From assembly GCF_000194605.1 (NCBI RefSeq), contig NC_015321.1:1798001-1862000 (forward strand): 64,000 bases of DNA, written 5' to 3'. The notes beneath the pieces were generated by a model. The model was not told where the DNA came from, did not search any database, and was given only the letters and a program-made list of their open reading frames with translations. Of this stretch, positions 703 to 60,740 are shown piece after piece. This DNA is from Fluviicola taffensis DSM 16823. GTDB lineage: Bacteria > Bacteroidota > Bacteroidia > Flavobacteriales_D > Crocinitomicaceae. The position numbers and the translations under genes were made by a program. Numbering within the stretch: position 1 is the first letter of the stretch; every line of letters starts with the position of its first letter.

Positions 703-2508
703 TTACTTAATTACTTTATAAGTCTTAGAAATACGTTCTCCCGAAAGGATTAACAAATACGTTCCATGAGAAACAGATTCCAATTGGTTCAATTCAATCA
801 ATCCTGAATTCAAATTAGGCATTTCCGAAAGCACTCTTCCGTTTAAATCAATCAACTTCATTGACAGAATCACACCATCTTTATTATCCACAGAAATGGA
901 ATTACTGAATGGATTTGGATAAATAGAAATGGATTCTAATGGATTTTCTTTGAGTTGGAGCGGAGTTGAAATGCTTGTTCCACTAAAGTAAAGAACACCA
1001 TTTATTTTGAAGAAATCATTTCCAGATTTGTTCGGGCAGAAAACAGAGATTGTTAGTGCATAATATCCTGGACTTCCAGCCAAACCAAGTGTGTCAAGAA
1101 TATATGTTGTATCCGTTGGGGTGTAAACGGCCCAAGTAACATACAAGTTCTGGTTGATTGAATCATAAACAGCTTGATACAATGAAGCTGAGTCAATTGT
1201 GTTGTAATCGATGATACAGTTTGTGACTAGATTTGAATACAAAGTGTCATTGATAAGACCGTTCGGATAGGGATTGTTTCCATAAATGGAAGAAGAATCT
1301 GCAATGATAAAATCTACAGTTGTTGAGTCATTTAAATTATCCCAAACTGTTACAGAGTAAATTCCAGCACAAAGATTTGAGATTGAATTACTGATTTGAC
1401 CATTACTCCATAGTATAGCATAAGGTGTATTTCCTCCGCTTGGTGAAACGGAAGCAGAACCTGAGCAATTTGAAATGTAGTCATCAGCAGTATTCAGATT
1501 TGCTGATAAAGCATATAGCGTATCCTGACCAACACCACTTGAAAGTTCATTGGCACAGCCGATAGCATCTGTACACCAAACTGAATAGTGCCCAGGACAT
1601 GCATTCGTTAAATTCTGGGTTGTATCACCGTTTGACCACAAATAGGTGTAAGGTGCTGTCCCACCAATTGGTGTAAAATTAATTCCCCCATCACACGAAC
1701 CTTGTGGATATGGTGTGCAGTTTATTAGAGAAACTCCCCAAACAAAGCCAGCACAGTCTAGGATAACAAAATTGATGGTAGTGTCATTATAAAGAGCATC
1801 CCAGATAGTGACAGAATGGGTTCCTGCACAAAGATTATTTGCGAAACTTGTAGTTACACCGATATCCCATTGATAAGTATATGGTGCTGTTCCTCCAGTT
1901 GGTAATAGAGAAGCCGATCCGTTGCAATTGTTGTTGGTAAGATCATTTACTGAGGTTAAATGAGGAACAATAGGTGTTAATTGTGTGGAATCTACTACTG
2001 CTGGGTTGTAAAAAAGGATACAGCCGGCTGCATCCGTGCATTTAACACCGTAAAGAGCAGGACAAAGATTAGATAGAGATTGGGTGGTGACCCCGTTTGA
2101 CCATTGATAAGTGTATGGAGCAGTACCATTAATTGGCGTGAAAGAAATTGCACCATCACAATTTGAGGGAGTACAATTTGTAACGGAAGCGGTATATGTA
2201 AAAGGTGAACAAGGATTAGTTATGGTGAAGTTTTCGTAAATCTGTACTCCCATTGAATCCAATATCAGCATGTAACCGGAACTACACAAGCCGGTGATCA
2301 TGGTGTCTCCTGAAGAGATAACAGTTGAATCGTTCCATGCCCATGTCCATGTCCAGTTCGAGCTGAAACTAGAATAATCTGAAAAATTGGCTGTTCCATC
2401 ACAGGTTGACTGACTGGTTGCGTTTGCTGTAGTAACGTTTTGTGCTGTACTTAGGTGAGAACTCGTCAGAACGATAAGTGTTAAAACAAGCAAATAAAGG
2501 TGTTTCAT
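703..2508 (-). CDS. SprB-repeat T9SS-secreted surface protein (paralog 1 of 3)
   Basis: Predicted 601-residue secreted protein. The start is set at the methionine of MKHLYLLVL (codon 2506-2508), which begins a clear signal peptide and matches both neighbours; the frame stays open upstream. The middle has about four copies of the SprB-type repeat (GTAPYTYQWSNG... then LC.G.Y.V...D..GC). Next come a pre-sorting module of about 110 residues (NNPYPNG ... FCPNKSGNDFF) and a T9SS type A sorting domain beginning SIYPNPF and ending TYKVIK. Such proteins cross the outer membrane through T9SS and are usually anchored on the surface or released; SprB itself is a gliding adhesin, but this protein is far smaller and its ligand is unknown. 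Its 3' end has diverged from the other two paralogs. Confidence 0.85.
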   Translation of the reverse strand: MKHLYLLVLTLIVLTSSHLSTAQNVTTANATSQSTCDGTANFSDYSSFSSNWTWTWAWNDSTVISSGDTMITGLCSSGYMLILDSMGVQIYENFTITNPCSPFTYTASVTNCTPSNCDGAISFTPINGTAPYTYQWSNGVTTQSLSNLCPALYGVKCTDAAGCILFYNPAVVDSTQLTPIVPHLTSVNDLTNNNCNGSASLLPTGGTAPYTYQWDIGVTTSFANNLCAGTHSVTIWDALYNDTTINFVILDCAGFVWGVSLINCTPYPQGSCDGGINFTPIGGTAPYTYLWSNGDTTQNLTNACPGHYSVWCTDAIGCANELSSGVGQDTLYALSANLNTADDYISNCSGSASVSPSGGNTPYAILWSNGQISNSISNLCAGIYSVTVWDNLNDSTTVDFIIADSSSIYGNNPYPNGLINDTLYSNLVTNCIIDYNTIDSASLYQAVYDSINQNLYVTWAVYTPTDTTYILDTLGLAGSPGYYALTISVFCPNKSGNDFFKINGVLYFSGTSISTPLQLKENPLESISIYPNPFSNSISVDNKDGVILSMKLIDLNGRVLSEMPNLNSGLIELNQLESVSHGTYLLILSGERISKTYKVIK

Positions 2509-2523
2509 AGATTGAATTTTGCC

Positions 2524-2531
2524 CAAAATTA
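2524..2531 (-). promoter_or_regulatory. -7 promoter box of SprB-repeat gene 1
   Basis: TAATTTTG on the minus strand fits the Bacteroidetes -7 consensus TAnnTTTG and ends 15 bases before the start codon at 2508. The same layout precedes paralog 3. No convincing -33 element was seen. Confidence 0.5.
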
Positions 2532-2551
2532 GTGATTTTCCTTCAATAAAA

Positions 2552-2578
2552 ATCCCCACTTATGAAACAAGTGGGGAT
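2552..2578 (-). terminator. Rho-independent terminator of SprB-repeat gene 2
   Basis: Perfect 10-bp stem ATCCCCACTT/AAGTGGGGAT with a 7-base loop, followed on the minus strand by a T-rich run. It lies 22 bases past the stop of the gene at 2601-4859, which makes that gene a separate transcription unit. Confidence 0.85.
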
Positions 2579-2600: not shown

Positions 2601-4859
2601 TTACTTAATTACCTTATAAGTCCCGGAAGAATTTTCTCCGGAAAGGATCAATAAATAGGTTCCAGATGAAATGGCATCCAATTGATCCAGTTTCACCATT
2701 CCTGAATTCACAGAAGGCATTTCTGAAAGAACACGTCCGTTCAAATCTACCAGTTTCATCGATTTGATGACGCCGTCTTTGTTATCTACCGAAATCGAAT
2801 GTGTAAATGGATTCGGATAAATCGATATGTTATTGAGGGCATTTTCAGTGACATTCAATGTGGACATCCAAACTGTTGATCCGTCAAAATAGATCACGCT
2901 TTCAATCTTAAAGAAATCATTTCCGGATTTGTTTGGACAATATATGGCAATCATCAAATTGTAATAACCCGGATTACCAGTGAAGGCAAGTGTGTCATTG
3001 ATATAAACCGTATCTGTTGGGGAATAAATCGCCCAGGTCACATACAAACTTTGACTGCTTGAACTGTAAACCGCCTGGTACAAAGCTGCCGAATCGACGG
3101 TGTTGTAATCGATAACACAGTTCATTACCAAATCCGTATACAAAGTATCACTGATTGTTCCGTTCGGATAAGAATTGTTGCTGTAAGTGGAAGCAGAATC
3201 TGTAATGACAAAATTTACAGTTGTAGAATCTGTTCCAGCATCCCAGATAGTCACCGAGTAAATTCCCGCACACAGGTTTGAAACAGAAGCACCATTAGAT
3301 CCGTTGCTCCATGCAATGGTATAAGGAGCAATTCCTCCACCAGGAGAAACAGAAGCAGAACCGCTGCAATTATTCGTCAGATCGTCTGTTGAAGTCAGAT
3401 TCGCCAAAAGATTAATTAGAATGATGGAATCACTAATCGTAATTGGTTGATCGATTATGCATCCATTTGCATCCATGCCAATGAAATCATATGTTCCAGG
3501 ACAAAGTGAGTTAAAGGTGGCAAGGGGTGAAAATGTAACTCCATTATCTAATGAATATTGGTAACCTGGCAATCCTCCAGAAACAGCAACTGTTATCGTC
3601 CCGGTGCAATTTCCGTTGATTGTTCCTGTAGTAGTGAAACTCCCGGTAAAATTTGCACACGGATTCGTAATGGTAAAATTGGTCGTAATCGTATCCGCGT
3701 TATCCCAAACGGTTACATGGTAGTTTCCAACACAAAGATTGCCAATTGTAGAGGTTGTTTCACCAGTACTCCACAGGTAAGAATATGGACCTGAACTACC
3801 AGTAGGAGCTACCTGAGCTTCGCCTATGCAGTTACCAGTAAGATCGCCTGTAGTTGTGAGATTCACTGAGAACGGCGGCGGAGTTGCATTAACTACAACC
3901 ACTTCGGATGTCATACAGCCATATACATTCGTGCAAGTAACGGTATAAAATCCGGAACATAAGTTAGAAATGGATTGTGTGTTGGCTCCGTTATTCCAGT
4001 TGAATGTAAAAGGAGCACCGGTTCCAAAGACAGTAGCTGTGGCCGAACCGTCACAAACTCCGGGAGCTGATGCAGGTGTTTGAGAGACAATAACTCCAAA
4101 AGTACAGGCATCATGGATTTCGAAATTGAAAGTAACGGAGTCTGTACCATCATAAATAGTTACCCAATAATTTCCCACGCAAAGCATATAAACAAAACTG
4201 GTAGTTTCCCCTGTGCTCCAAAGATAAGTGTAAGAACCTGACCCTCCTGTTGGAGCTAAGGAAGCAGAACCCGTACAATTGGCGGAGGAATCGACAACCG
4301 TGAAATTCGGGCTGATGACACTGAGAGAAGTATCTGAAAGAGTAACTGCTAAGGTTGCAGTACAGCCCATTGCGTCGATACAAGAAAAATTATAAGTTCC
4401 AGGACACAGATTAGAAATGATTGGAGAGGGCGCAAGAACGGACTCTAAATAATATGTATAAGGAGAGGTTCCTAAGTATGCGTAAATATAAATCTCACCA
4501 TCACAATTTCCCGGAGTACAATCTGTGACTGAAGCGGTGGACATTGTCATATTCATACTCGAACAAGTATCGATTATTGTAAAAGAAACAAGTTGTGAAT
4601 ATCCAGTGGAATCAACCTCCAAGAAATAATGTCCAGCGCATAAGTTTGAAATTTGCTGGCCGCCAGATGCAATTATGGTGCTTGTATCATCTTCATACCA
4701 AACCCATGTGGAGGTACTGAAGTTTGCAGAATTGTTAAAAGTAGCAGATCCGTCACATGCTCCCGGACTTGAACAATTGTTAATAGGAAGAGAAATTTGT
4801 GCCGTACTTAGGTATGAATTTGTCCATACAATAAGTACTAGTAGGTAAAGGTGCTTCAT
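2601..4859 (-). CDS. SprB-repeat T9SS-secreted surface protein (paralog 2 of 3)
   Basis: Predicted 752-residue secreted protein, the longest of the three tandem paralogs. The start is placed at MKHLYLLVL (4857-4859), a signal peptide ending near STAQ. About five to six SprB-type repeats follow (GSGSYTYLWSTGETTS..., LC.G.Y.VTI.D), rich in Cys, Thr, Ser and Asn. Then come the shared pre-sorting module (FCPNKSG-like YCPNKSGNDFFKIESVIYF) and a type A T9SS sorting domain. The last ~340 bp of the gene are almost identical to the last ~340 bp of the next paralog, while the repeats upstream are clearly diverged, suggesting gene conversion. It is flanked by a terminator on each side. Surface display is inferred from the sorting domain; the binding partner is unknown. 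Confidence 0.85.
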   Translation of the reverse strand: MKHLYLLVLIVWTNSYLSTAQISLPINNCSSPGACDGSATFNNSANFSTSTWVWYEDDTSTIIASGGQQISNLCAGHYFLEVDSTGYSQLVSFTIIDTCSSMNMTMSTASVTDCTPGNCDGEIYIYAYLGTSPYTYYLESVLAPSPIISNLCPGTYNFSCIDAMGCTATLAVTLSDTSLSVISPNFTVVDSSANCTGSASLAPTGGSGSYTYLWSTGETTSFVYMLCVGNYWVTIYDGTDSVTFNFEIHDACTFGVIVSQTPASAPGVCDGSATATVFGTGAPFTFNWNNGANTQSISNLCSGFYTVTCTNVYGCMTSEVVVVNATPPPFSVNLTTTGDLTGNCIGEAQVAPTGSSGPYSYLWSTGETTSTIGNLCVGNYHVTVWDNADTITTNFTITNPCANFTGSFTTTGTINGNCTGTITVAVSGGLPGYQYSLDNGVTFSPLATFNSLCPGTYDFIGMDANGCIIDQPITISDSIILINLLANLTSTDDLTNNCSGSASVSPGGGIAPYTIAWSNGSNGASVSNLCAGIYSVTIWDAGTDSTTVNFVITDSASTYSNNSYPNGTISDTLYTDLVMNCVIDYNTVDSAALYQAVYSSSSQSLYVTWAIYSPTDTVYINDTLAFTGNPGYYNLMIAIYCPNKSGNDFFKIESVIYFDGSTVWMSTLNVTENALNNISIYPNPFTHSISVDNKDGVIKSMKLVDLNGRVLSEMPSVNSGMVKLDQLDAISSGTYLLILSGENSSGTYKVIK
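2605..2942 (-). repeat. Near-identical 3' coding tract, copy A
   Basis: Aligned at an offset of 2333 bp, this stretch matches 4938-5275 with one difference seen by eye (2720 versus 5053). It codes for the end of the pre-sorting module and the entire sorting domain. Similarity stops abruptly after the shared GGACAAT, at 2942. Confidence 0.85.
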
Positions 4860-4894
4860 CGTTTTAATTTTGAGAGGTGGTTTTTTGCGGAAAA

Positions 4895-4918
4895 CCTCGT
4901 TCACTTTTGTGGACGAGG
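4895..4918 (-). terminator. Terminator of SprB-repeat gene 3
   Basis: CCTCGTTCAC (4895-4904) and GTGGACGAGG (4909-4918) form a 10-bp stem with one wobble pair and a TTTT loop. On the minus strand it is followed by TTTTCC, just past the stop of the gene at 4934-6742. Confidence 0.7.
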
Positions 4919-4933
4919 CTTCGCTAGAGATCG

Positions 4934-6742
4934 TTATTTAATTACCTTATAAGTCCCGGAAGAATTTTCTCCGGAAAGGATCAATAAATAGGTTCCAGAT
5001 GAAATGGCATCCAATTGATCCAGTTTCACCATTCCTGAATTCACAGAAGGCACTTCTGAAAGAACACGTCCGTTCAAATCTACCAGTTTCATCGATTTGA
5101 TGACGCCGTCTTTGTTATCTACCGAAATCGAATGTGTAAATGGATTCGGATAAATCGATATGTTATTGAGGGCATTTTCAGTGACATTCAATGTGGACAT
5201 CCAAACTGTTGATCCGTCAAAATAGATCACGCTTTCAATCTTAAAGAAATCATTTCCGGATTTGTTTGGACAATAAACAGATATTGTAAGACCGTGATAT
5301 CCTGGAGGTAAACCTGCCAAACCAAGTGTATCGCTGATATAAACGGTATCTGTTGGAGAATAAACCGCCCAGGTAACATATAAATTTTGGTTGATCGAAT
5401 CATAAACTGCCTGGTAGAGTGAAGCCGAATCAATGACACTGTAATCGATGATGCAGTTGGTAACTAGGTCTGTATACAACGTATCGTTGATTGTCACGTT
5501 TGGAAACGGATTGTTACCATAAGTTGTAGAAGAATCCGCAATGATGAAATCTACCGTTGTGGAATCTGATCCGGAATCCCAAATAGTTACTGAGTAAATT
5601 CCTGCACAAAGGTTGGAGATGGAACCTCCGCCCTGGCCATTACTCCATAATACACTATAAGGAGCTATTCCTCCCGTTGGTGTAATAGAAGCAAAACCAT
5701 CGCAATTGCCCGAATAATCATCGGTTGAGTTGAAATTTGCAGAAAGATTACTGATCGTTCCGATTGAATCATAAATGAAGACAGTTAGAGTAACTCCGCA
5801 GCCATTTGAATCCTCAAGTGCTACCGTGTAAGTTCCTGTACAAAGGTTAGCTATGGATTGAGTGGTTAAGCCATTTGACCAAAGATAATTGTAGGGAGCA
5901 GTTCCGTTGACGGGTATAACAGAAGCTGATCCGTCACAGCTAACAGGGTTTGAAGCAAAAACAGCTGAAGTAGTTCCTGTGAAATTGGCACACGGATTCT
6001 GTGAACTTTGAATGGTAAAGTTAACAGTAACTGAATCAGTTCCATCCCAAATTGTTACGGAATAGTTCCCCCCGCAAAGATTAGAAATATTATAGGTAGT
6101 TTCTCCAGTACTCCAAAGATAGGAATAAGTCCCAGAACCGCCAGTTGGGAAAGCAGAGGCAGAACCATAACAGAATCCATTAGTGTCATCCACCAAAATC
6201 ATATTTGCATTGATAGATAGCATGGAAGAATCAGCTATTGTTGCTGTTGCACTAGTCGTACAGCCATTAACATCTGTACAAATGACGCTGTAAGTTCCGG
6301 CACAAATAAACGTTTGGTTCTGTACTGTTGCACCAGCGCCGTTTGACCAGTTATAGCTATATGGAGCACTTCCGCCTGTTACGGTCAATTGAATAGTTCC
6401 GTCGCAATTTCCGGGAGTGCAATTTGTTGTGGATAGATTAACAGTTAGATTTGAACACGGATTCGTAATTGTAAAGTTGAAGCTGACACTATCTTGATTT
6501 GCATCTTGAATAATGACAAAATAAGATCCAGCACATAATCCACTAATGGAACTGTTTGTGGAACCATTACTCCAGGTATAAGTATATCCACCTGCGCCAC
6601 CAGTTGGAGCTGCTGAAGCTGTTCCAGAACAAGTCATGGTATTATCATTGGTATACGTAACATTCGGAATAATTTGTGCTGTAATTAGGTTAGAACTTGC
6701 TAATGCAAAAATCACTAATACAAGCGAGTAAAGGTGTTTCAT
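4934..6742 (-). CDS. SprB-repeat T9SS-secreted surface protein (paralog 3 of 3)
   Basis: Predicted 602-residue secreted protein. Translation most likely starts at MKHLYSLVL (6740-6742); the frame extends three codons further to a TTG, but the ATG matches both paralogs. After the signal peptide there are about four SprB-type repeats (GGSAPYSYNWSNG, GTAPYNYLWSNG), the pre-sorting module and the T9SS sorting domain. It is a mosaic: the pre-sorting module resembles paralog 1 (YDSINQNLYVTWAVY), whereas the last 340 bp are nearly the same as paralog 2. It has its own promoter and a terminator after the stop. Role inferred: surface adhesin or structural repeat protein. Confidence 0.85.
   Translation of the reverse strand: MKHLYSLVLVIFALASSNLITAQIIPNVTYTNDNTMTCSGTASAAPTGGAGGYTYTWSNGSTNSSISGLCAGSYFVIIQDANQDSVSFNFTITNPCSNLTVNLSTTNCTPGNCDGTIQLTVTGGSAPYSYNWSNGAGATVQNQTFICAGTYSVICTDVNGCTTSATATIADSSMLSINANMILVDDTNGFCYGSASAFPTGGSGTYSYLWSTGETTYNISNLCGGNYSVTIWDGTDSVTVNFTIQSSQNPCANFTGTTSAVFASNPVSCDGSASVIPVNGTAPYNYLWSNGLTTQSIANLCTGTYTVALEDSNGCGVTLTVFIYDSIGTISNLSANFNSTDDYSGNCDGFASITPTGGIAPYSVLWSNGQGGGSISNLCAGIYSVTIWDSGSDSTTVDFIIADSSTTYGNNPFPNVTINDTLYTDLVTNCIIDYSVIDSASLYQAVYDSINQNLYVTWAVYSPTDTVYISDTLGLAGLPPGYHGLTISVYCPNKSGNDFFKIESVIYFDGSTVWMSTLNVTENALNNISIYPNPFTHSISVDNKDGVIKSMKLVDLNGRVLSEVPSVNSGMVKLDQLDAISSGTYLLILSGENSSGTYKVIK
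4938..5275 (-). repeat. Near-identical 3' coding tract, copy B
   Basis: Partner of 2605-2942, in direct orientation. The single visible difference in the tract changes Met to Val in the sorting domain (position 5053). Confidence 0.85.
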
Positions 6743-6758
6743 AAGTTTCAATTTTGCT

Positions 6759-25068: not shown

Positions 25069-28000
25069 ATGAAACGTACCTTAACTATTCTATTTTCACT
25101 TTTCTTATTTGTATTAAACGCCCAACAAGACTCGAGTAATCTGTCTCCCAACGGTATATTTGACAAGGTTTTTGACATGAATGGAAGGCAGTACCAATTA
25201 AGTGATTTACAAGTTGGCAGTATTCCTAAAAATGCACAGCTCGCGCCCGCATTATTGTGTTCCAGTGGTTACTTCGATTTATACTTCGAACAAGGAAGTG
25301 GCATGGAAGGCAGTTCTCAGACTGAAATTGACCGCAGAAATGTGATTTGTCAGGTTTTTTCCGATTTATCTCAGTTTATTGTACCTGCAAACTCCAACGT
25401 GCATGTCAATATTTTGGTGCGAAATATTAATCAAGAGCTGCCAGGATATGATCCGTTGACCAATCCTTTTCCAGCAGCTATAAGTAATGTGTTGGGTTTA
25501 GCCTCGGGTTTTTACGTAGTCCCTTCAAATGCGTCCGCTACTAAAGGAATAATTGACAATGAAATTTGGAAAACAATCAATTCAGGTGTTGATTCCTATA
25601 CCGGAGTGGCATCTCCTCTTATTTCAACAGTTCCAAATGGGGCCATGTTTTATCATGGAATGGTAGGATTTAATTTTGATAATATCGGAAACCCCTGGAA
25701 TATCCTGTTAAATCAAGCTCCATCCTCTTCAAGTTATTTTGATTTATATTCAGTAGCACTTCATGAAATTACACATGCTTTGGGCTTTGCTTCGTTAATT
25801 GATGCGAATGGAGATTCAAAATTTAATACGGGTTATGAATATTATTCGCGTTACGATTTGTTTTTGAAAACCGCCGGAAATCAATCTTTAATAACAAATA
25901 CCGGAGCATGTTCTTTATACAATTACAGCTTCAATCCTGCATTGAATCCAACGGTTATGACTCCTGCTTCATTTGATTGTGCAACGCACATTAAATTTGC
26001 AGGAACGGTTAATAAATCGGTATATTCTCCATCAACTTTTCAACCGCCAAGCAGTTTAAGCCACATGGAAGACGTGTGTCATCATACAGTGAATCCTTAT
26101 CTGGATGATGAATATTATGTGATGTCTAACGGACAAAACGGCGGTTCTATGAAAAGGTATTTAAAACCAGAAGAAAGAGCTGTTTTGTGTGATATTGGTT
26201 ATCAGGTAAATACAACTTATGGTATTACTTCCAACTTAAATTATTTCAACTATAATGTGGGTGTTTGTCCAGGACTGCAAATTGCCGGAGTTAATGATGG
26301 AATTACATCAGGGGGATTATACCAACATGTTGTAAGTCCTGGTGGATCACTGACCATTTCAACTATCCTGCAAAATGATGTAAATGCGAGTAGCTTTGAG
26401 TGTTTGGAGAATATTTATGGAAATGGTACACTGACCGCGATTTCCAGTACCAGTTTTACCTATACAGCAGCTACTCCGGGAGTTGTCCTGTTAAGGTATA
26501 TTCCTGTTTCAGGCACCGGGGTGAGAGGAAACATTACCTATGTACTTATTTATGTTTCAGCAGGAAATTGCACACCAACAGTTTGCAGTATGCTGAATAA
26601 CGGCAATTTTGAAGGTGCTGGTCAATGCGGTCAGCTGGAAGTACCTGCTAGTAACGGAATTTCGATAAATTGTTGGTCTCCTGCAGTTCTTACACCAGAT
26701 CTTTTTAAAAGGAATTGTACCAGCACCTTCAATAATAATTTTTCTATTCCTGCTACTTATTATAATTCCCCGGGAGCTGAATCCTGGAATGGTTCTCCTA
26801 ACAATCACTTCATGGGGTTTGCAGGTTTGAGTAATGGATTTGAAGCCGCACAATCGTTACTGAATATTCCTTTAGTTCAAAACCAAACGTATACACTTTC
26901 GTTCCGTGCAAAAGTTGCTTATAATGCGATGAATCAGATGCCTCCTCTAGGTACGAATGGTCAAATAACTTTTGGTGCTGCACTTTCAACTATTGCATGG
27001 CCCGGTGCTAATTCAGTTTTACCGTCTATTCCCGGTTCGGTATATCAATTGGGTACTCCGATAATAATAAACAATACCGCTAACAATAATTGGGACTATT
27101 ATTCGCAAACATTTACCTATACAGGTTCTGGTAATTTGTCCAATTTTTTTATTGCGAATACCTCCTTATTGGGAACGTCTGGAAATACTTACGGTTTGTA
27201 CATTTACATGGATGATATTTCATTGGTTGCAGCAAATCCCACGATTGTGATGGATTTGCCAAATGCAATGTGTTCCAATCAATCTATTTCTGATTTATCC
27301 CCATATGCACCTCTTCCAAATGGATCTTTTTCCGGAAACGGGGTGCAATACAGTGGAGGTGTTTACAGCTTCAATGCAGCTGTTGCGGGTATTGGGATGC
27401 ACACCATTGTTTATACCTATACGGATAATAATGGTTGCTCTCAAACGATTTCAGACATCATTGAGGTAGGACCAATTATTACCGTTTCAGCCATTAATAA
27501 TTTTATTTGTTCAGGTCAGCAGGTGTCAATAACTGCAAGTGGAGCAGATACTTATACCTGGTCTCCTGCAACCGGATTATCTACAACTACAGGCCCTGTT
27601 GTCATCGCATCTCCCACAGCAAGTACTACCTATACGATTACAGGAACAAATTCTTTAGGATGTACAGCATCGAAATTGGTGCATGTTTTTATTACACCTC
27701 CAACCGCTACTATTTCAGGTACTACATCGGTCTGTCAAAACTCCGGATCACCGAGTATTGCTTTAACTGCATCATTTGGAACTGCACCATATACATTTGT
27801 CTATACTATCAACGGCGGAGCAAACCAAACGATCACCACAACCTATGGAAATGGGATTGGTATTCCTGTACCCACCAATACTTCTGGAACATTCACATAT
27901 AATTTAGTCAGTGTAACAAGCGCAACAGGCTGTTCCCAAATTCTGAGCGGTTCAGCTACCGTTACAATAAAGCCGCTGCCAACAGCAACCATTTCAACTG

Positions 28001-31000
28001 TTCCAACTGTGTGTCAGGGAGCACCTTCACCAACTATTACCTTTACAGGATTAAATGGTACTGCACCTTACACGTTTTATTATACGACAAATGGGGTTAA
28101 TCAATCAATTGGAAGTGGGAGCGGAAATGTTGCTACGGTTCTAGTACCAACAAGTGCTACGGGAACGTTTACCTATACTTTAACAAGTGTAAACAGTGCT
28201 ATGGGATGTTCTAAAAGCCAAAGCGGAACTGCTGCAATTACGGTTAGTCCATGTCCGGATTGTGGAACAGGAACACTGATTTCTGGAACGGTAACTACTT
28301 CACCAACAGCGAATACTACTTTGCGTGTTGCAAGCAATACTACAATCTCCGGAAATGTAACGTTTACCGGAAACAATGTAAAAATTCAGCCTGGAGTTAC
28401 AATTACAGTAGCTTCAACGGCAACATTAAATATTACAGGATCACATTTTTACGGTTGTGAAAACATGTGGCAGGGAATTGTTGTGCAACCTGGTGGAAAG
28501 GTAAATATGCAGCCATACATCGTGTCTTCAACGGTTACAAAAACACCCCTAATTGAAGATGCAGTTATTGGGGTAGACTTTTTACCGGTTACAACCCAGC
28601 AAAGCGTTATTTTATTGCAGGTAAATAATGCAACGTTTAACAAAAACGCAACAGCAATCAGAGTGCAGGGTTATCCGTTTGCGAACGTTGCAAGCATGTT
28701 CTCGGTGAAGAACAGTTTGTTTACTTGCAGAACTATCTACAATACTTCTGCTTCAACTTGGCCTTTGACAACTACCGTGAAAGCTTTAAACGGAAGTACA
28801 GACCCATACGTAAATCCTTACATTACCACGACTTATCCAATAACGACTATGAAAGTGCCTCAAAACAGCACCTTTTCAGATAAAGGAATTCAATTGGTAA
28901 ATGTTGGTACAGTATTTAATTCAATGAATATTGGATCTACTGTTGCGGCTGAATACAATGTATTTGATAACTTAAAGGTTGCACTTCATTGTTCGAATGC
29001 CAATGTTAAAGTAGAAAATACTGCGGTACAATTCCCGCAGATCATTACTTCTGCCATGTATTCAAGCCAAAGTTTGCCCAATATTGGAACTGGAATTTTT
29101 GCCACAGCTACATCTGGTTATTTGGGTAAAGTAGATGTTGCAGGAACTACCTCGCTTCCTAATAAATTTTATGGATTGAGCAGAGTACTTCATGTGGTCA
29201 ATTATCAGAATGTTCAGTTCAATTACAATACGATTCGCAGCACCCGTACCAACAATTATCCAGTACAAGGCTATTACAATGGAAATATGGGGCTTTATCT
29301 CTCTTTGGAGCAATTTCAAACAGTGGGTGTTGTTTACAATACCATTTACAATACCAATACAGGTGTTTTTGTGAGTGTTAACAATGGAATTAATCCATGT
29401 GTTGGAGCAAGCATTGCCGTTTCCAACAATTTATTTCAAAAGAATTTAGGAACGAATAATGGCTCTTTTGGAACGAGTGCCATTCATTTAGAAAATAATA
29501 GTGCGCTTGATGTTTTTGCAGGATCTATTTACTCAATTAGCAATACTATTACAGGTTCTCTGCGAGGAATCACTGTTAATAATTGGCTTAAAACGAGTAT
29601 TACGACCAATGAAAACACCCTTACTTTGGGTATTAACCCCAATGCTTTTGTGGGTGCTTCCAGTTATGGTATTGCGTATAATAATTGTACAGCTGGAAAT
29701 GGGATGAATCAGATCTATGGAAACAACGTAATTGGGTTTTCACAGGCTTATGAAAACTATAAAGGCATTCAGTTTACGCAATCAATGGGAAACAATATCT
29801 CTTGTAATGGAACACGTGACACACATACCGGGTTGTATTTTAATGGAACTTGCAGCCAAACCAAAACCTACAAAACAACCATGCAAAACCACCGCTACGG
29901 CTTTGTGTTGGATAATAGCGCAATTATAGGACAGCAGGGAACCACCACCACACCCACGGATAATACCTGGGTGGGTACAACTTGGTCTCCCACTGGAACC
30001 ACAAATGGAAATTTTAAAAATGCCTGTTTGAACGGAAGTAATACAAATAATTCAAAAATGTATGTGCGGAATAGCAGCAGTTGCAATCCGAATGGTTCAA
30101 CATTTACTTCAGGATTAGGTAGTTGGTCATATACCGCGAGCATTTCTCCAATCACCTTATTTTACGTGTCTAATCCACCACTTGAAACAGCATGTGTGAC
30201 CAGCCTTCCACCAGAAGAAGGCTTGATGGCTGGAACTAACGGCAGTGAAGAAGGCATCGCATCAGAAACGGCTAGTGCAGAAGAATCTGCGGCTAGTTGG
30301 TTGGAAGAATCTGCAGAATTGGTCGAATCGGTTATAGATTCAGATCACCAAGTGGTGATGAAGAACCAATTGTATCGATTATCGGAAGAGGAATCGGGTA
30401 CTTTAAGTTCAGCTCAACCAGAGTTGGATGCTTTAATTGAAACAGAGTCACAAACCAATATTGGCACGTTATGGGAAGTGGAAAAATCCTTGTCAGTTGG
30501 CGATTTGGCAGAGGCCGCGGCAATTAACAATAGCGTGAATCCGGAAAACAGGTTGGAAGAAAGTTACCAACTTCTCTACGAAGCAGATTTGCATTACCGC
30601 AACGAGGTGTTTAACACATCGGACAGTTTGGTGCTAGTTGATTTGGCTCAAGGTTGCCCTGCCCAACAAGGAGGATCTGTGTTCCAAGCACAAGCGCTCT
30701 ATAATCACGTGTACCACACAGCTACTATTTTCACGCCAGATTGTCAAACTAGTTCAGCGAAAAGCATGCAACAAACTGCTAGTGCAGATCATCCCGATGA
30801 TGAAAATGTGTTGTATAAGTTGTATCCTGTTCCTAATAATGGGATCTTCAAGTTGCAAGGATCCTTGTTAGCAGGTGATCAATTACAAATCATGCAGTTG
30901 GATGGTAAGTTATTGCTAGCACAAACAATCATGCAAGATGAAGAAACAATGGATTTGGCAACTCATTTGAGTTCAGGAACCTATGTGGTTGTATTGAAAA

Positions 31001-31050
31001 ATAGCGAGGGACAAGTGAAATACCGAAACCGCATTGTTGTGCTCCAGTAA
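25069..31050 (+). CDS. Giant T9SS-secreted leishmanolysin-like metalloprotease with beta-helix
   Basis: 1993 residues with a signal peptide to about residue 19. HEITHALGF (232-240) is an HEXXHALGF zinc motif; a third ligand candidate is His332 in SHMED, followed by YVMS, an arrangement reminiscent of leishmanolysin (M8) metzincins. Next come a jelly-roll-like segment (about 505-730), Ig/PKD-like domains rich in GCS/GCT turns (about 800-1060) and a long parallel beta-helix (about 1080-1700: NATFNKNATAIRVQGY-type coils). An acidic Glu/Ser-rich linker (about 1715-1770) leads to the T9SS sorting domain (about 1917-1993). Predicted to act outside the cell on protein or polysaccharide-associated substrate. 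Its sorting-domain DNA is duplicated in the next gene. Confidence 0.8.
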   Translation: MKRTLTILFSLFLFVLNAQQDSSNLSPNGIFDKVFDMNGRQYQLSDLQVGSIPKNAQLAPALLCSSGYFDLYFEQGSGMEGSSQTEIDRRNVICQVFSDLSQFIVPANSNVHVNILVRNINQELPGYDPLTNPFPAAISNVLGLASGFYVVPSNASATKGIIDNEIWKTINSGVDSYTGVASPLISTVPNGAMFYHGMVGFNFDNIGNPWNILLNQAPSSSSYFDLYSVALHEITHALGFASLIDANGDSKFNTGYEYYSRYDLFLKTAGNQSLITNTGACSLYNYSFNPALNPTVMTPASFDCATHIKFAGTVNKSVYSPSTFQPPSSLSHMEDVCHHTVNPYLDDEYYVMSNGQNGGSMKRYLKPEERAVLCDIGYQVNTTYGITSNLNYFNYNVGVCPGLQIAGVNDGITSGGLYQHVVSPGGSLTISTILQNDVNASSFECLENIYGNGTLTAISSTSFTYTAATPGVVLLRYIPVSGTGVRGNITYVLIYVSAGNCTPTVCSMLNNGNFEGAGQCGQLEVPASNGISINCWSPAVLTPDLFKRNCTSTFNNNFSIPATYYNSPGAESWNGSPNNHFMGFAGLSNGFEAAQSLLNIPLVQNQTYTLSFRAKVAYNAMNQMPPLGTNGQITFGAALSTIAWPGANSVLPSIPGSVYQLGTPIIINNTANNNWDYYSQTFTYTGSGNLSNFFIANTSLLGTSGNTYGLYIYMDDISLVAANPTIVMDLPNAMCSNQSISDLSPYAPLPNGSFSGNGVQYSGGVYSFNAAVAGIGMHTIVYTYTDNNGCSQTISDIIEVGPIITVSAINNFICSGQQVSITASGADTYTWSPATGLSTTTGPVVIASPTASTTYTITGTNSLGCTASKLVHVFITPPTATISGTTSVCQNSGSPSIALTASFGTAPYTFVYTINGGANQTITTTYGNGIGIPVPTNTSGTFTYNLVSVTSATGCSQILSGSATVTIKPLPTATISTVPTVCQGAPSPTITFTGLNGTAPYTFYYTTNGVNQSIGSGSGNVATVLVPTSATGTFTYTLTSVNSAMGCSKSQSGTAAITVSPCPDCGTGTLISGTVTTSPTANTTLRVASNTTISGNVTFTGNNVKIQPGVTITVASTATLNITGSHFYGCENMWQGIVVQPGGKVNMQPYIVSSTVTKTPLIEDAVIGVDFLPVTTQQSVILLQVNNATFNKNATAIRVQGYPFANVASMFSVKNSLFTCRTIYNTSASTWPLTTTVKALNGSTDPYVNPYITTTYPITTMKVPQNSTFSDKGIQLVNVGTVFNSMNIGSTVAAEYNVFDNLKVALHCSNANVKVENTAVQFPQIITSAMYSSQSLPNIGTGIFATATSGYLGKVDVAGTTSLPNKFYGLSRVLHVVNYQNVQFNYNTIRSTRTNNYPVQGYYNGNMGLYLSLEQFQTVGVVYNTIYNTNTGVFVSVNNGINPCVGASIAVSNNLFQKNLGTNNGSFGTSAIHLENNSALDVFAGSIYSISNTITGSLRGITVNNWLKTSITTNENTLTLGINPNAFVGASSYGIAYNNCTAGNGMNQIYGNNVIGFSQAYENYKGIQFTQSMGNNISCNGTRDTHTGLYFNGTCSQTKTYKTTMQNHRYGFVLDNSAIIGQQGTTTTPTDNTWVGTTWSPTGTTNGNFKNACLNGSNTNNSKMYVRNSSSCNPNGSTFTSGLGSWSYTASISPITLFYVSNPPLETACVTSLPPEEGLMAGTNGSEEGIASETASAEESAASWLEESAELVESVIDSDHQVVMKNQLYRLSEEESGTLSSAQPELDALIETESQTNIGTLWEVEKSLSVGDLAEAAAINNSVNPENRLEESYQLLYEADLHYRNEVFNTSDSLVLVDLAQGCPAQQGGSVFQAQALYNHVYHTATIFTPDCQTSSAKSMQQTASADHPDDENVLYKLYPVPNNGIFKLQGSLLAGDQLQIMQLDGKLLLAQTIMQDEETMDLATHLSSGTYVVVLKNSEGQVKYRNRIVVLQ

Positions 31051-32047
31051 GAATGTGTTGTTTGAATGGAAATTAAAAAGAAACCGGATGAAAAAATGGA
31101 CGATATGGATTTTTTTGATCACAAACCAGGTGTTTGGGCAAGTCAATTTGGTTCCCAATCCAAGCTTTGAACAGTGTGTGAATTGTATAACAACTGATTT
31201 TGGCCCAGCTTCATACCAAGCCTCAATTGTTGATTGGTTCAACCCCAATACCTGTACTCCAGATTATTGTACAGCAATGGATTATCCAGCGTGGTTGAAT
31301 TATCAAATTCCAGATGGGCAAGCATTTATAGGGATAGGAACTTATGATCCAGCAGGTTCGAATGGTCGGGAATATGCCACCTGTGCCTTGCTGGATACAT
31401 TGTTGGCTTCGAAGTGGTATGAGGTGTCATTTTATGCACGTGTGAAAGAAGGGCATTCTCGTTTTGCCTCCAATAATTTAGGAGTACATTTCAGTGATAC
31501 GGCTTTGCATGCAGCTAATATGTATTTGTTTAATGTCTATAATCCACCCTTGTTGGAAGCTCAGGTAAAATATTTCAACAACGAAATAATCTCTGATTCG
31601 GCGCATTGGACTTTGGTGTGTGGTTTGTATCAGGCACATGGCGGGGAGAAATACCTGACCTTGGGTAATTTCAATACCGATGCGCAGACCACTCAAGGCA
31701 TGGAATACACGGATGGTATCGTATGGCAAACCTATTTTCTGATTGATCAGGTATCGGTGATTCCTTTAGACAGCATAGTGGGTGGTATTCCAGCAGATGC
31801 GGGCCCAGATCAAACGATCTACATCAACGACACTGCATTTATAGGTCAAAAAATAAGCAATATGCCTTCTGTGTGGCAGAAGCTGGATGGCACATCAGTT
31901 GCTATGAATACTGCTGGGGTTTACGTTTCCCCGCAAGTAAACACAACGTATGTAGTTTCACAAACCATTAATGGGTTTTATTCCACGGATACGGTCACCG
32001 TTTTTGTGATCGATGATTTAGGTATTGAAGAAGATTTTCAATCGAAG
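30814..32047 (+). repeat. 1234-bp tandem duplication, unit 1
   Basis: Starts within the sorting-domain region of the giant protein, crosses the 37-bp intergenic gap and covers the body of the gene at 31088. Sequence at 30826 matches 32060, and the start codon at 31088 matches 32322, both at an offset of 1234. Confidence 0.8.
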
Positions 32048-32284
32048 TATAAGTTGTTCCCTGTTCCCAATAATGGGATCTTCAAGTTGCAAGGATCCTT
32101 GTTAGCAGGTGATCAATTACAAATCATGCAGTTGGATGGTAAGTTATTGCTTGCGCAAACGATGATGCAGGATGAAGAAACAATGGATTTGGCAACTCAT
32201 TTGAGTTCAGGAACCTATGTGGTTGTGTTGAAAAATAGCGAGGGACAAGTGAAATACCGAAACCGCATTGTTGTGATCCTGTAA
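31088..32284 (+). CDS. T9SS-secreted jelly-roll-like protein, chimeric copy
   Basis: 398 residues. The start is at MKKWTIWIF (31088), a signal peptide ending VFGQ; the frame is open upstream but has no signal. Mature body NLVPNPSFEQC ... begins like lectin/CBM-type jelly-roll domains of Bacteroidetes, with AHGGEKYLTLGNFNTDAQT near residue 195 and a Pro/Thr segment (VGGIPADAGPD). The body is nearly the same as the next gene, but its sorting domain (FPVPNNGIFKLQGSLLAGDQ ...) is nearly the same as that of the upstream giant protein. It therefore appears to be a chimera created by tandem duplication. Cargo role unknown. Confidence 0.85.
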   Translation: MKKWTIWIFLITNQVFGQVNLVPNPSFEQCVNCITTDFGPASYQASIVDWFNPNTCTPDYCTAMDYPAWLNYQIPDGQAFIGIGTYDPAGSNGREYATCALLDTLLASKWYEVSFYARVKEGHSRFASNNLGVHFSDTALHAANMYLFNVYNPPLLEAQVKYFNNEIISDSAHWTLVCGLYQAHGGEKYLTLGNFNTDAQTTQGMEYTDGIVWQTYFLIDQVSVIPLDSIVGGIPADAGPDQTIYINDTAFIGQKISNMPSVWQKLDGTSVAMNTAGVYVSPQVNTTYVVSQTINGFYSTDTVTVFVIDDLGIEEDFQSKYKLFPVPNNGIFKLQGSLLAGDQLQIMQLDGKLLLAQTMMQDEETMDLATHLSSGTYVVVLKNSEGQVKYRNRIVVIL

Positions 32285-33281
32285 GAATGTGTTGTTTGAA
32301 TGGAAATTAAAAAGAAACCAGATGAAAAAGGGAATGGTATGGATTGTACTGATAACAAACACGGTGTTTGGGCAGGTGAATTTGGTTCCCAATCCCAGTT
32401 TTGAACAGTGCACAAATTGCATAACAGGGCCTTTTGGACCAGCATTTTTTGAAGCATCAATTGTTGATTGGTACAACCCCAATACCTGTACCCCGGATTA
32501 TTGTACAGCAATGGATTATCCAGCGTGGTTGAATTATCAAATTCCTGATGGACAGGCATTTATAGGACTTTCGACTTATGATCCTGTTGGATCAAATATC
32601 AGAGATTATGCCACCTGTGCCTTGCTGGATACATTGTTGGCTTCCCATTGGTATGAAGTGTCTTTTTATGCACGGGTGAAAGAAGGGCATTCTCGTTTTG
32701 CTTCTAATAATTTAGGAGTACATTTCAGTGATACAGCTTTGCATGCAGCTAATATGTATTTGTTTAATGTCTATAATCCACCCTTGTTGGAAGCTCAGGT
32801 AAAATATTTCAACAACGAAATAATCTCTGATTCAGCTCATTGGACCTTGGTGCGTGGTTTGTACCAGGCACATGGTGGGGAGAAATACTTGACCTTAGGT
32901 AATTTCAATACCGATGCGCAAACCACCCAAGGTATGGAATACACAGATGGAATAGTGTGGCAAACCTATTTTATCATTGACATGGTTTCCGTCATTCCTT
33001 TAGACAGCATAGTGGGTGGTATTCCAGCAGATGCGGGCCCAGATACAACGATTTACATCAATGACACTGCATTTATTGGTCAAAAAATCAGTAATATGCC
33101 TTCTGTGTGGCAGAAGCTGGATGGAACAGCCGTTGCTATGAATACTGCTGGGGTTTACGTTTCACCGCAAGTAAACACAACGTATGTGGTTTCACAAACC
33201 ATCAACGGGTTTTATTCCACGGATACGGTTACTGTTTTTGTGATCGATGATTTGGGAATAGATGAGCCCGAAGAATACAAT
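32048..33281 (+). repeat. 1234-bp tandem duplication, unit 2
   Basis: Second unit: sorting domain of the chimeric gene, the same 37-bp intergenic gap, and the body of the gene at 32322. The right boundary, about 33265-33281, is where the unrelated sorting domain of that gene begins. Confidence 0.75.
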
Positions 33282-33518
33282 TTTACCGTTTCACCGAACC
33301 CTAACAAAGGAGTTTTTACCATTCAACTGCAACAGCTGATTAAAGAAACCACGGAGCTTGTTATTTATGACAATACTGGTCGGGAAGTTATGAACCAAGC
33401 GGTGGAATCTCCCATTACGCAAATAAAGGTTGTTACAGCAGTTAAACCAGGAATATATTTAGTGCAGCTTAGGCAAAAAGGAACTGTTGGAAAGAGACAA
33501 ACAGTAGTGATAGAGTGA
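32322..33518 (+). CDS. T9SS-secreted jelly-roll-like protein, parental copy
   Basis: 398 residues. The start is at MKKGMVWIV (32322), signal peptide to VFGQ. The body is the paralog of the preceding gene; residues about 310-398 carry a different sorting domain (NFTVSPNPNKGVFTIQLQQL ... KRQTVVIE). This combination is most simply the ancestral one. The 37-bp gap before it is a copy of the gap before 31088. Followed by the second minus-strand hairpin element. Confidence 0.85.
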   Translation: MKKGMVWIVLITNTVFGQVNLVPNPSFEQCTNCITGPFGPAFFEASIVDWYNPNTCTPDYCTAMDYPAWLNYQIPDGQAFIGLSTYDPVGSNIRDYATCALLDTLLASHWYEVSFYARVKEGHSRFASNNLGVHFSDTALHAANMYLFNVYNPPLLEAQVKYFNNEIISDSAHWTLVRGLYQAHGGEKYLTLGNFNTDAQTTQGMEYTDGIVWQTYFIIDMVSVIPLDSIVGGIPADAGPDTTIYINDTAFIGQKISNMPSVWQKLDGTAVAMNTAGVYVSPQVNTTYVVSQTINGFYSTDTVTVFVIDDLGIDEPEEYNFTVSPNPNKGVFTIQLQQLIKETTELVIYDNTGREVMNQAVESPITQIKVVTAVKPGIYLVQLRQKGTVGKRQTVVIE

Positions 33519-33540
33519 TTTTTTCAAAACAAAAAGGTCT

Positions 33541-33673
33541 TAAAAACAACAAGAGAGAAGCAGGCGCTCCTCTCTTGTTCCAACCTAAACTACTACTACT
33601 TATGAAAACTAACCTCTAAAACTAAATCAAATAACGTACCAAAGTATTTACTTGTTTCTAGCCTTAGCGTATA
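33541..33673 (-). ncRNA. Candidate intergenic small RNA, copy 2
   Basis: A minus-strand TATCTTTG -7 box (33674-33681) is followed by the conserved ATAAGTAGTAGTAGTTTAGGT (complement of 33583-33603) and a perfect 10-bp hairpin (33548-33557/33570-33579) running into GTTTTT. It resembles copy 1 at 24763-24981 in sequence and layout, although the stems and loops differ. Together the two flank the T9SS cluster. Ends inferred. Confidence 0.4.
33548..33579 (-). terminator. Rho-independent terminator, minus strand
   Basis: AACAAGAGAG/CTCTCTTGTT, perfect 10-bp stem, 12-base loop, followed on the minus strand by GTTTTT. Confidence 0.6.
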
Positions 33674-33780
33674 CAAAGATAACGGACGTATTTCGATTTT
33701 GTTTCATATTGAACTCAGTTTTAACATTATTTGGAGAACCGGAATTTTGCTCAAAAAGACACGTAAGATAAGATTTCATG

Positions 33781-33788
33781 TATCTTTG
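33781..33788 (+). promoter_or_regulatory. -7 box of metF
   Basis: TATCTTTG, 32 bases before the ATG at 33821. No -33 TTG at the usual distance. Confidence 0.55.
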
Positions 33789-33820
33789 GCGACGAATTTA
33801 ATTATATCCTCTCTGAAGGC

Positions 33821-56452: not shown

Positions 56453-59400
56453 ATGAAGCAAATACTATTTTTCACTATTCTGATTTTTCACAGTCAATTT
56501 TCTATTGCCCAAACTCCTGTGCTTCAAGAAGGTACATGGCAACCAAATGGAGGGGTTAATTGTATGGAAACTGACACGAATAATAACGTTGTATATATCG
56601 GAGGAAATTTTAATTATGTTGGACCAGATGAACGAAACGGTGCCCTAATAGGATTAAATGGAATTGTTGATTTTTCTTTTGCGAATCCAAATGAACGAGT
56701 TAGAACATCCATTTCAGATGAAAATGGCGGATGGTATATTGGTGGTGATTTTACGATGGTGGGCGATAGCATAAGGAATTATTTAGCACACATAGATTCA
56801 ACTGGTCATGTTACAGATAAAATCGGGAGAAATGGGCCTGGAAGCTATGTTAATTCGCTCTTATTGCATGATTCAAGTTTATATGTATCGGGACCGTTTT
56901 CAAAATTTGGGTTATCGGGAGGAAAGTATGGAGCTGTTTTAAATAGCCAAAACGCTTATCCTGATTTAACTGTTCTTAGCCCCAACACAGATGTAAACAG
57001 TGTGTTATCCGATAATAATGGCGGCTGGTATATTAGTGGTAATTTTTCGCAGATTGGTGATAGTGTTAGATCCGGGCTAGCTCACATCACATCATCAGGC
57101 TTGTTAAGCGATTGGAAACCAATAATTAATGGAACAATTGAGACGTTAAAAATTAAGGACTCCATATTATATATTGGAGGTAATTTTAGCACAATTAATG
57201 GAATTACCCGAAATAATGTTGCTTCATTCAACTTGAATAATGGTTTTCTTACATCTTGGAATCCAAATGTAAGCGGTTTCGTAAATACATTATGTATTTC
57301 TGACTCTGTAATCTATATTGGAGGAGATTTTTATCAGATAGGGGGAGTAAATCGAGATTACATTGCAGCTATAAATATCACAACTGGCTTAGTTACTTCA
57401 TGGAACCCAATTCTCAATGGAACAATCAATGAATTAGCCGTTTCGGGAGACTCACTTTTTTTTGCTGGTTATTTTAACATTGTGAACGGGCAATCTAAGC
57501 TAGGTATTGCTGCTTTGAATTGTGCGTCCGGAGATCTTTCACTTTGGAATTACAACTATAATGCTCCAATAAGATGTTTGTATATTTCAGACACAATTTT
57601 ATATATTGGAAGTGAATATTATTTTGATCATTTAACTGCTGTTAGTTTATTGAATGGTGAGATTATTACCAATTTAAATATTACTACCGATGGTTTAGTA
57701 AATTCAATTATTAAATCTGGAGACACGCTTTTTTTAGGAGGAGACTTTTCTATTGTTAATGGAGAACCAATCAAACGAATAGCGGGAATTAGATTAAGTA
57801 CTGGAGAAATGACAGAATTTCAATCTTATGTTGATGGCTCAGTTAAGACAATGGCTTTATATGGTGAAAAAATGTATGTAGGAGGATCATTTACTGAAAT
57901 TGGAAGAAAAGAAAGAGAGCGTGTAGTTGAAATTAATGTGAATAATGGTCTGGCTACTTCCTGGCATCCTATTTTAACAGGTAGTTGGAAATCAATTGTT
58001 GCAAGAGACTCGATTGCATATGTTTCAGGTGATTTTTCTTCGTTTAATGGTCAAACGCGAAATGGGCTAGCGTCATTTAATTTATACACAAAAACTCTTA
58101 CAAACTGGAGCCCAAATCCGAGTAACACAGTTAGTGTCTTACTAATATCCGATTCTATATTATATGTTGGTGGACGCTTTACCACAATAGCAGGACAAAC
58201 TAGAAATCGTGCCGCAGCATTTAAATTATCTACTGGCGCGATAACAAACTGGAATCCTAATTTGGATAATGAAGTTTTTGCCTTAGCTGCAACGGCTAAT
58301 TCAATTATTGTTGGAGGAGCGTTTAATTATGTTGGAGCTCAAATAAGAAGCCGTATTGGAGCGGTTAATAAAACGAATGGAACTGTGCTAAGTTGGAATC
58401 CAAATGCTAATGATAATATATATTCATTAGCCACAACAAATTCATCCGTTTATGTTGGGGGGTTATTCACAGTATTGGGTGGACAAAAAAAGAATTATCT
58501 AGCTGAAATAGATTTGATTACTGGTGCACCAACTCCATGGGATGTTTCAACTGAGGGAACAGTTATGACGTTGACATTCAGTCTTGGCAAGTTATTCGTT
58601 GGAGGATCATATTACTCTATTGGTGGACAATTAAGAGATGGCATCGCGTCAATTGATGCTTCATCTGGGGTGTTAACATCCTGGAATCCGATTATTTCAG
58701 GAGGAATAATAAATACAATGAAATACTACCATAATAAACTCTATGTAGGGGGAACCTTTACAACTATAAATGGGCAAATGAGAAATGGATTGATGGCATT
58801 TTCATCAAATGGACAACTTACTAGTTGGAACCCTGCTCCAAGTAATCCAAATGTTTACTCTATAGAAGCAAATAATGGATCTATATACATTGCAGGCCCT
58901 ATTTATGTTCTTGGTGGTCAAAACCGACAATATTTGGGAGCTGTTGACACATTAACTGGTTTGGCAACAAGTTGGAACCCTTCTGCAAATTTATTAGTCC
59001 ATAAACTGTTCTCAGTAGATTCAATAATTTATGCCTCAGGTCTTTTCAATTCAATTGGTGGACAAAGTAGAGTTGGATTTGCTTCTATAAATAGGACAAC
59101 AGGTTTAGCAAATGCGTGGAATCCAATTGTTTCATCACCGGTTTTCTCATTAATCAAAGGTAATCAAGGCACTTTATTTTTAGGGGGTCAATTTGATTCT
59201 ATAAATGGAATTAGCAGAAAATATTTTGGAGAAGTAGACCTCTTAAATGGATTATTAACGTCGTTGAATTTGAATTTCAATTATGGGGGACTTAGTACCA
59301 TTGCTAAAAAGGGAAACATGGTTTTTATGGGTGGTGGATTTACATATATTAATGGACAACCAAGAAACGGAATGGCTTCTGTAAATTTGAATAATGGAGT

Positions 59401-60655: not shown

Positions 60656-60680
60656 ATGAATAGCCATAAATAAGTAATTG

Positions 60681-60722
60681 AAAATCCGTTTTGAGAAATC
60701 AGGGCCGATTTTTGTATGTTTG
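60681..60722 (+). promoter_or_regulatory. Terminator-promoter module, copy B
   Basis: AAAATCCG/CCGATTTT hairpin (60681-60688/60705-60712, one mismatch), then TATGTTTG (60715-60722). A TTTG at 60690-60693 in the loop is 21 bases before the -7 box, so the -33 element lies inside the terminator. The start codon follows at 60741. Confidence 0.6.
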
Positions 60723-60740
60723 TCGAATCAATTTAGCCCT

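Follow-up and report, generated by a model that had tools for sequence, protein, structure and literature searches.

A duplicated gene for a predicted secreted protein of Fluviicola taffensis carries the sorting domain of its upstream neighbour

The locus and its 1234-bp repeat

How did two adjacent genes of the freshwater bacterium Fluviicola taffensis with nearly the same body come to end in different T9SS sorting domains, one of which also closes the gene upstream? The locus lies on the plus strand of the window, by which we mean the whole 64,000-nucleotide stretch that was analysed (positions 1798001-1862000 of a single contig of 4,633,577 bp). Gene G (25069-31050), an open reading frame with an orthologue in the related genome G010, encodes a predicted secreted protein of 1993 aa that ends in sorting domain A (30814-31047). 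After a gap of 37 bp (31051-31087) comes B1 (31088-32284, 398 aa), in which body B is followed by a linker and a second copy of domain A (32048-32281). Another 37-bp gap (32285-32321), differing from the former at 1 of 37 bases, leads to B2 (32322-33518, 398 aa), where body B is followed by sorting domain B (33288-33512; genome 1831288-1831512). The bodies of B1 and B2 are 88.7% identical in DNA and the two copies of domain A 95.3%; domain A of B1 and domain B of B2 have 26% identity in the last 90 residues. This is the order of genes, gaps and domains that the initial annotation had claimed.

The segment 30814-32019 recurs without gaps 1234 bp downstream; 116 of its 1206 bp differ (90.4% identity), and its next best placement within the window is 31.7% identical. 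The differences fall chiefly at third codon positions (72 of 105 in the body, 8 of 11 in the domain). Compared base by base, the two places show background similarity until about 30812 and gapless homology from there to about 32019. The repeat holds the last 78 codons of G (domain A), the stop codon, the 37-bp gap and the body of B1. A repeat search returned a two-copy family of 300 nt with a spacing of 1234; the final two copies of a 23-nt family have this spacing too. All repeated parts have a single constant offset and there is one new joint, as a single tandem duplication would produce. The self-comparison thus confirmed the sharp 1234-bp offset proposed earlier, at which the starts (31088 and 32322), the stops, the gap and domain A all recur. 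When the own genome was searched with the domain of G, that domain itself and the copy on B1 (96%) were close; other matches reached at most 41% identity over 48 residues, and among matches of 60 or more residues the highest further identity was 35%.

Both B proteins score above the TIGR04183 cut-off of 23 bits (B1 29.4, B2 35.4), which places them among type A cargo. For Pfam PF18962 (cut-off 27) B2 passes at 36.2 and B1 lies just below at 25.9, and full-length G had no sorting-domain match in Pfam and NCBIfam at E up to 0.1. The type A sorting domain is described in the accessible text of PMC11285876 as a seven-stranded beta-sandwich. Seven strands are predicted at residues 322-396 of B1 (block pLDDT 56-76) and 320-397 of B2 (44-63), in AlphaFold models (three sequences) that are poor overall, with mean pLDDT of 37.0 and 35.2, respectively. 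Body B had no useful match among solved structures or in Pfam. Residues ~166-272 of G show a weak metalloprotease signature, both hits being below cut-off (Pfam Peptidase_M10, E 0.046; NCBIfam NF038122, E 3.6e-10). Promoter and terminator scanning of 30900-33800 gave matches at chance level.

Direction of transfer and the history of B1

Related loci without the duplication bear on the direction of the transfer. In G010 the orthologue of G (1889 aa) runs into the beginning of one B gene, and on contig 21 of G046 a 203-aa ORF bearing the G tail is followed by one B gene. The 152 sorting domains listed for the own genome (described below) were ranked against the domains of these loci. For the two G-type domains, the two copies of domain A rank first and second among the 152; for the two B domains it is domain B that ranks first, with the copies of domain A at places 39-40 (G010) and 24-27 (G046, contig 21). 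The parental arrangement without duplication is present in two of five adjacent G-B loci, namely these. At the loci in G046 (contig 1), G113 and G014 (contig 8, which stops 110 bp past B) a single B lies in the stretch read, and the sorting domains there resemble neither A nor B clearly; the body B scan of the named genomes gave one locus. The initial annotation had suggested looking for relatives with a single B, and in G010 and G046 (contig 21) G or its tail carries an A-type domain and the one B a B-type domain. Since this makes the domain A of B1 derived, sequence comparison indicates that domain A belongs to G and that B1 is a derived chimera, and the claim that domain A was placed in frame on a copy of body B is upheld.

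Two observations concern the B relatives themselves. The 203-aa ORF of G046 (L066 7795-8406), directly before B, is a possible chimera, with an N-terminus like that of B and the G tail and sorting domain behind it; as proteins the two N-termini look alike, and their longest DNA match is 8 bases. Outside the genus, B relatives at L067 5549-6760 and L051 1975-3231 have sorting domains slightly nearer to A than to B, and in the stretch read around them no G match exceeds 85 bits.

The best breakpoints in B1 are at 32026-32034 or 32043-32049, i.e. in the linker that leads into the domain (junction zone 32026-32049). Bases 32032-32046 match each parent at merely 33%, and no clear microhomology was found at the B1 joint. 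Breakpoints inside sorting-domain code, as originally proposed for both ends, are not what we see; the best positions are in the linker directly before the domains. By visual count, 11 of 14 B proteins, among them B1 and B2, have a spacing of 11 residues between the GI/GL/GV of the body and the PxPN motif.

The best explanation of the locus is a single tandem duplication that took in domain A, gap and body B, to which we give a probability of roughly 0.6. The ancestor would have had G with domain A at its end and behind it a single gene B with domain B, an arrangement for which the two related loci speak. Tandem duplication of a segment of about 1234 bp, which begins where domain A starts in G and stops at the corresponding start of domain B in gene B, would yield G-A, B-A and B-B in a single step, which we infer as the most economical course. 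The new joint preserves both the frame and the length of the linker, and later gene conversion may have held some stretches alike, for which the data are suggestive only. The tandem duplication put forward by the initial annotation is thus retained for its economy and its agreement with the relatives, with its breakpoints moved to the linker and a two-step rival beside it. B1 is predicted to be exported by the T9SS through the sorting signal of its neighbour. According to the accessible text of PMC10202324, fusing a CTD promotes T9SS-dependent secretion, so export should survive whichever tail is fused.

Silent divergence is relevant to the number of steps. For the bodies of B1 and B2 dS is 0.47 (dN/dS 0.10), and for the domain A copies of G and B1 it is 0.16 (dN/dS 0.14); the low dN/dS is consistent with both copies being kept as proteins, as a pairwise value that cannot separate the copies. 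At codons for identical residues, silent differences are fewer in the domain (6 of 71) than in the body (59 of 274; Fisher p 0.011, block borders chosen after the data were seen), which fits a younger transfer of the domain and counts against duplication in a single step. Fourfold sites do not separate domain and body (5/27 vs 36/124, p 0.34). The dS of 93-bp body windows is 0.17-1.07 and that of 78-bp domain windows 0.06-0.35, with block borders likewise set after inspection. These windows looked like a mosaic of ages along the repeat, a reading that we dropped because permutation of the silent changes gave p 0.10 for the variance among windows and p 0.07 for the longest run. A run test on all sites was significant and, as it mixes in protein constraint, was not relied on. 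Uneven silent divergence along the repeat is suggested at most. The duplication had been called dated-looking, and this did not hold: dS runs from ~0.06 to 1.1 by window and the unevenness tests disagree. Given these conflicting tests and the homogenisation of sorting domains between neighbours in the genus (see below), the repeat gives no clean age.

The main rival, unlikely to our mind, has two steps, in which whole B with the gap would have been duplicated, both copies ending in domain B, and the 3′ end of G would then have converted the 3′ end of B1. The conversion tract would be domain A plus the gap, with the duplicated gap and body as anchors. Domain-only similarity between neighbours elsewhere in the own genome and in relatives speaks for such a course, as do one orthologous tandem pair whose sorting domains were homogenised lineage by lineage and, by one of the tests, the lower share of silent changes in the domain than in the body. 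However, two events are required, a single offset without any indel runs through the entire 1.2-kb repeat, and the fourfold test does not tell the ages apart. The reverse transfer, to G from an old B1 that already had domain A, is highly improbable. Identity by itself carries no direction, and the B of G040 (another genus) and the B of MAG locus L051 have domains that resemble A a little more than B (scores 96 vs 81 and 95 vs 80); near both, the stretch read holds no G match above 85 bits. In G010 and G046 (contig 21), however, the G-type domains have their best match among the 152 listed in domain A, and the single adjacent B ends in a B-type domain. An assembly artefact, for which no sign was found, has next to no probability: of 1206 sites 116 differ between the copies, mostly third codon positions, and the genome is a single contig of the 4,633,577 bp published for Fluviicola taffensis RW262 (PMC3236050, accessible text). 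The single tandem duplication is the history that we prefer.

Sorting domains shared by neighbouring genes

Neighbouring cargo genes share sorting domains more often than the other pairs compared, in the own genome and in two related ones. The own-genome set holds 152 listed domains, i.e. 150 of 268 candidate places scored with TIGR04183 and the two copies of domain A added by hand. Neighbours are consecutive pairs within 8 kb, sharing means at least 50% domain identity and a body match is a BLASTP hit with E up to 0.001 in the last 450 residues or fewer. Among the 152 listed domains, sharing was found in 11 of 40 same-strand neighbour pairs, against 6 of 11,427 other pairs, and in none of the 9 opposite-strand neighbour pairs. 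The 11 pairs take in G/B1 and plain paralogues with similar bodies. Sharing without a body match, in the same set, occurs in 2 of 28 neighbour pairs vs 2 of 11,094 (Fisher p 3.7e-5); the two are G/B1 and 1111117/1115104, and without G/B1 the count is 1 of 27. Seven pairs were examined along the DNA: identity steps up from background at the domain start to 89% in G/B1, to ~82-83% in 1858443/1861528 and to 77% in 1111117/1115104, and three others of the seven have no step at the domain.

Further observations were made on individual genes. The pair 1800604/1802937 (window 2601-6751, minus strand) has sorting domains that are 99% identical (DNA 99.5%) on bodies that are 56% identical, and DNA identity jumps from ~70% to 98-100% about 100 bp before the domain; the domain of a third paralogue (window 703-2559) is 77 and 75% identical to theirs. 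In 1858443/1861528 (window 56453-63740, plus strand), genes of 1400 and 1020 aa, the sorting domains are 89% and the bodies 32% identical, and DNA similarity continues past the stop codon. Outside the window, three 375-aa frames dispersed over 34 kb (4221892, 4227665 and 4256103 of G000:C1; L153, L154) have identical sorting-domain DNA and 300 aa of identical body.

The related genomes G004 and G088 were treated by the same method, with 150 domains listed for each and a background of the 44 and 66 domains, respectively, that are in neighbour pairs. Among the domains listed, 1 of 25 neighbour pairs reaches 50% in G004, vs 0 of 921 others, and 9 of 38 in G088, vs 4 of 2107. In G004 the pair 399345/400090 has domains 81% identical and bodies without a match. 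In G088 one of the nine sharing pairs has a body match of just 33% over 184 residues, and none of the 25 listed pairs without a body match reaches 50%. A small selective look at G150 and G151 covered eight pairs picked among those listed. Of three pairs picked in G151, two have domains 65 and 57% identical and no body match; the third (L207, contig 54) consists of neighbouring paralogues with bodies 67% and domains 34% identical, the pattern of B1/B2. In G150 one of five pairs picked shares 68% (bodies 79%) and four share 22-29%. Sharing with a weak or no body match is thus seen in three of the four other genomes sampled (G004, G088 and G151, not G150).

One tandem pair has orthologues in two species, 2383349/2386933 in the own genome (G000) and 3502344/3505754 in G088. 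For the bodies, identity is 68 and 72% when orthologues are compared and 70 and 74% when the two genes of one genome are; for the domains it is 81 and 94% within genomes vs 54% between. Of the 516 columns of this family, it is chiefly the last 150-200 that carry the excess of within-genome identity; the windows before them are mixed. These comparisons indicate that the pair homogenised its domains separately in the two species. Another pair, 1379082/1381474, does not discriminate, with bodies that are also closest within their own genome and domains of the G088 partners 58% alike.

Slow evolution of the domain on old paralogues could account for 1858443/1861528 and for some of the sharing in G088, as in the 1858443 family the domain is more alike between genomes (83-86% identity to G088 relatives) than the bodies are (58-59% for the best orthologues). 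It fails, however, for the contrast of 54% vs 81-94% in the 2383349/2386933 family and for G/B1. Identities to G010, with block borders again drawn after inspection, are 40% for domain B, 49% for domain A, 46-76% for body B blocks and 37% for the G tail just before the domain, hence sorting domains are not uniformly fast-evolving. Tentatively, we propose that in Flavobacteriales whose T9SS cargo sets are large the sorting domain may be a 3′ cassette that moves locally. Neighbours may exchange or homogenise it by duplication and conversion, with a tail that tracks the neighbourhood and not the body, a mechanism that we hold equally tentatively. Slow domain evolution has lowered our confidence in this general reading slightly, and the sharing pattern comes from the listed domains of three genomes of one family and the small selective look at two others.

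Relation to known systems

The case, as read from the genes, is one of a duplicated secreted-protein gene with the export tail of an unrelated upstream neighbour. The T9SS literature searched, in which few subscription papers were covered, contained no report that we found of sorting-domain exchange. The locus points to one route by which a bacterium may obtain new secreted proteins, a body combined with the export tail of a neighbour, with related loci as controls, and it offers a testable case of a secretion signal under concerted evolution.

Tandem duplications whose two breakpoints lie in different genes are known to create chimeric genes. As there, one duplication would fuse the first part of one gene with the last part of another and leave a single new joint, but the part captured here is a secretion signal. 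Tandem paralogues are also known to undergo concerted evolution by gene conversion. The likeness is that neighbouring copies are more alike within a genome than orthologues are between genomes (in one pair); the difference is that the effect falls mainly on the 3′ end, where the sorting domain lies, and leaves the older divergence in most of the body. T9SS cargo of P. gingivalis such as RgpA and Kgp is described, in the accessible text of PMC5266723, as diversified by domain rearrangement and allelic exchange, so surface cargo of the same secretion system is changed by domain rearrangement in both cases. In RgpA and Kgp, however, the adhesin domains are modular and the C-terminal domain is called conserved (PMC5266723), whereas at the F. 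taffensis locus it is the sorting domain itself that appears to move onto an unrelated body.
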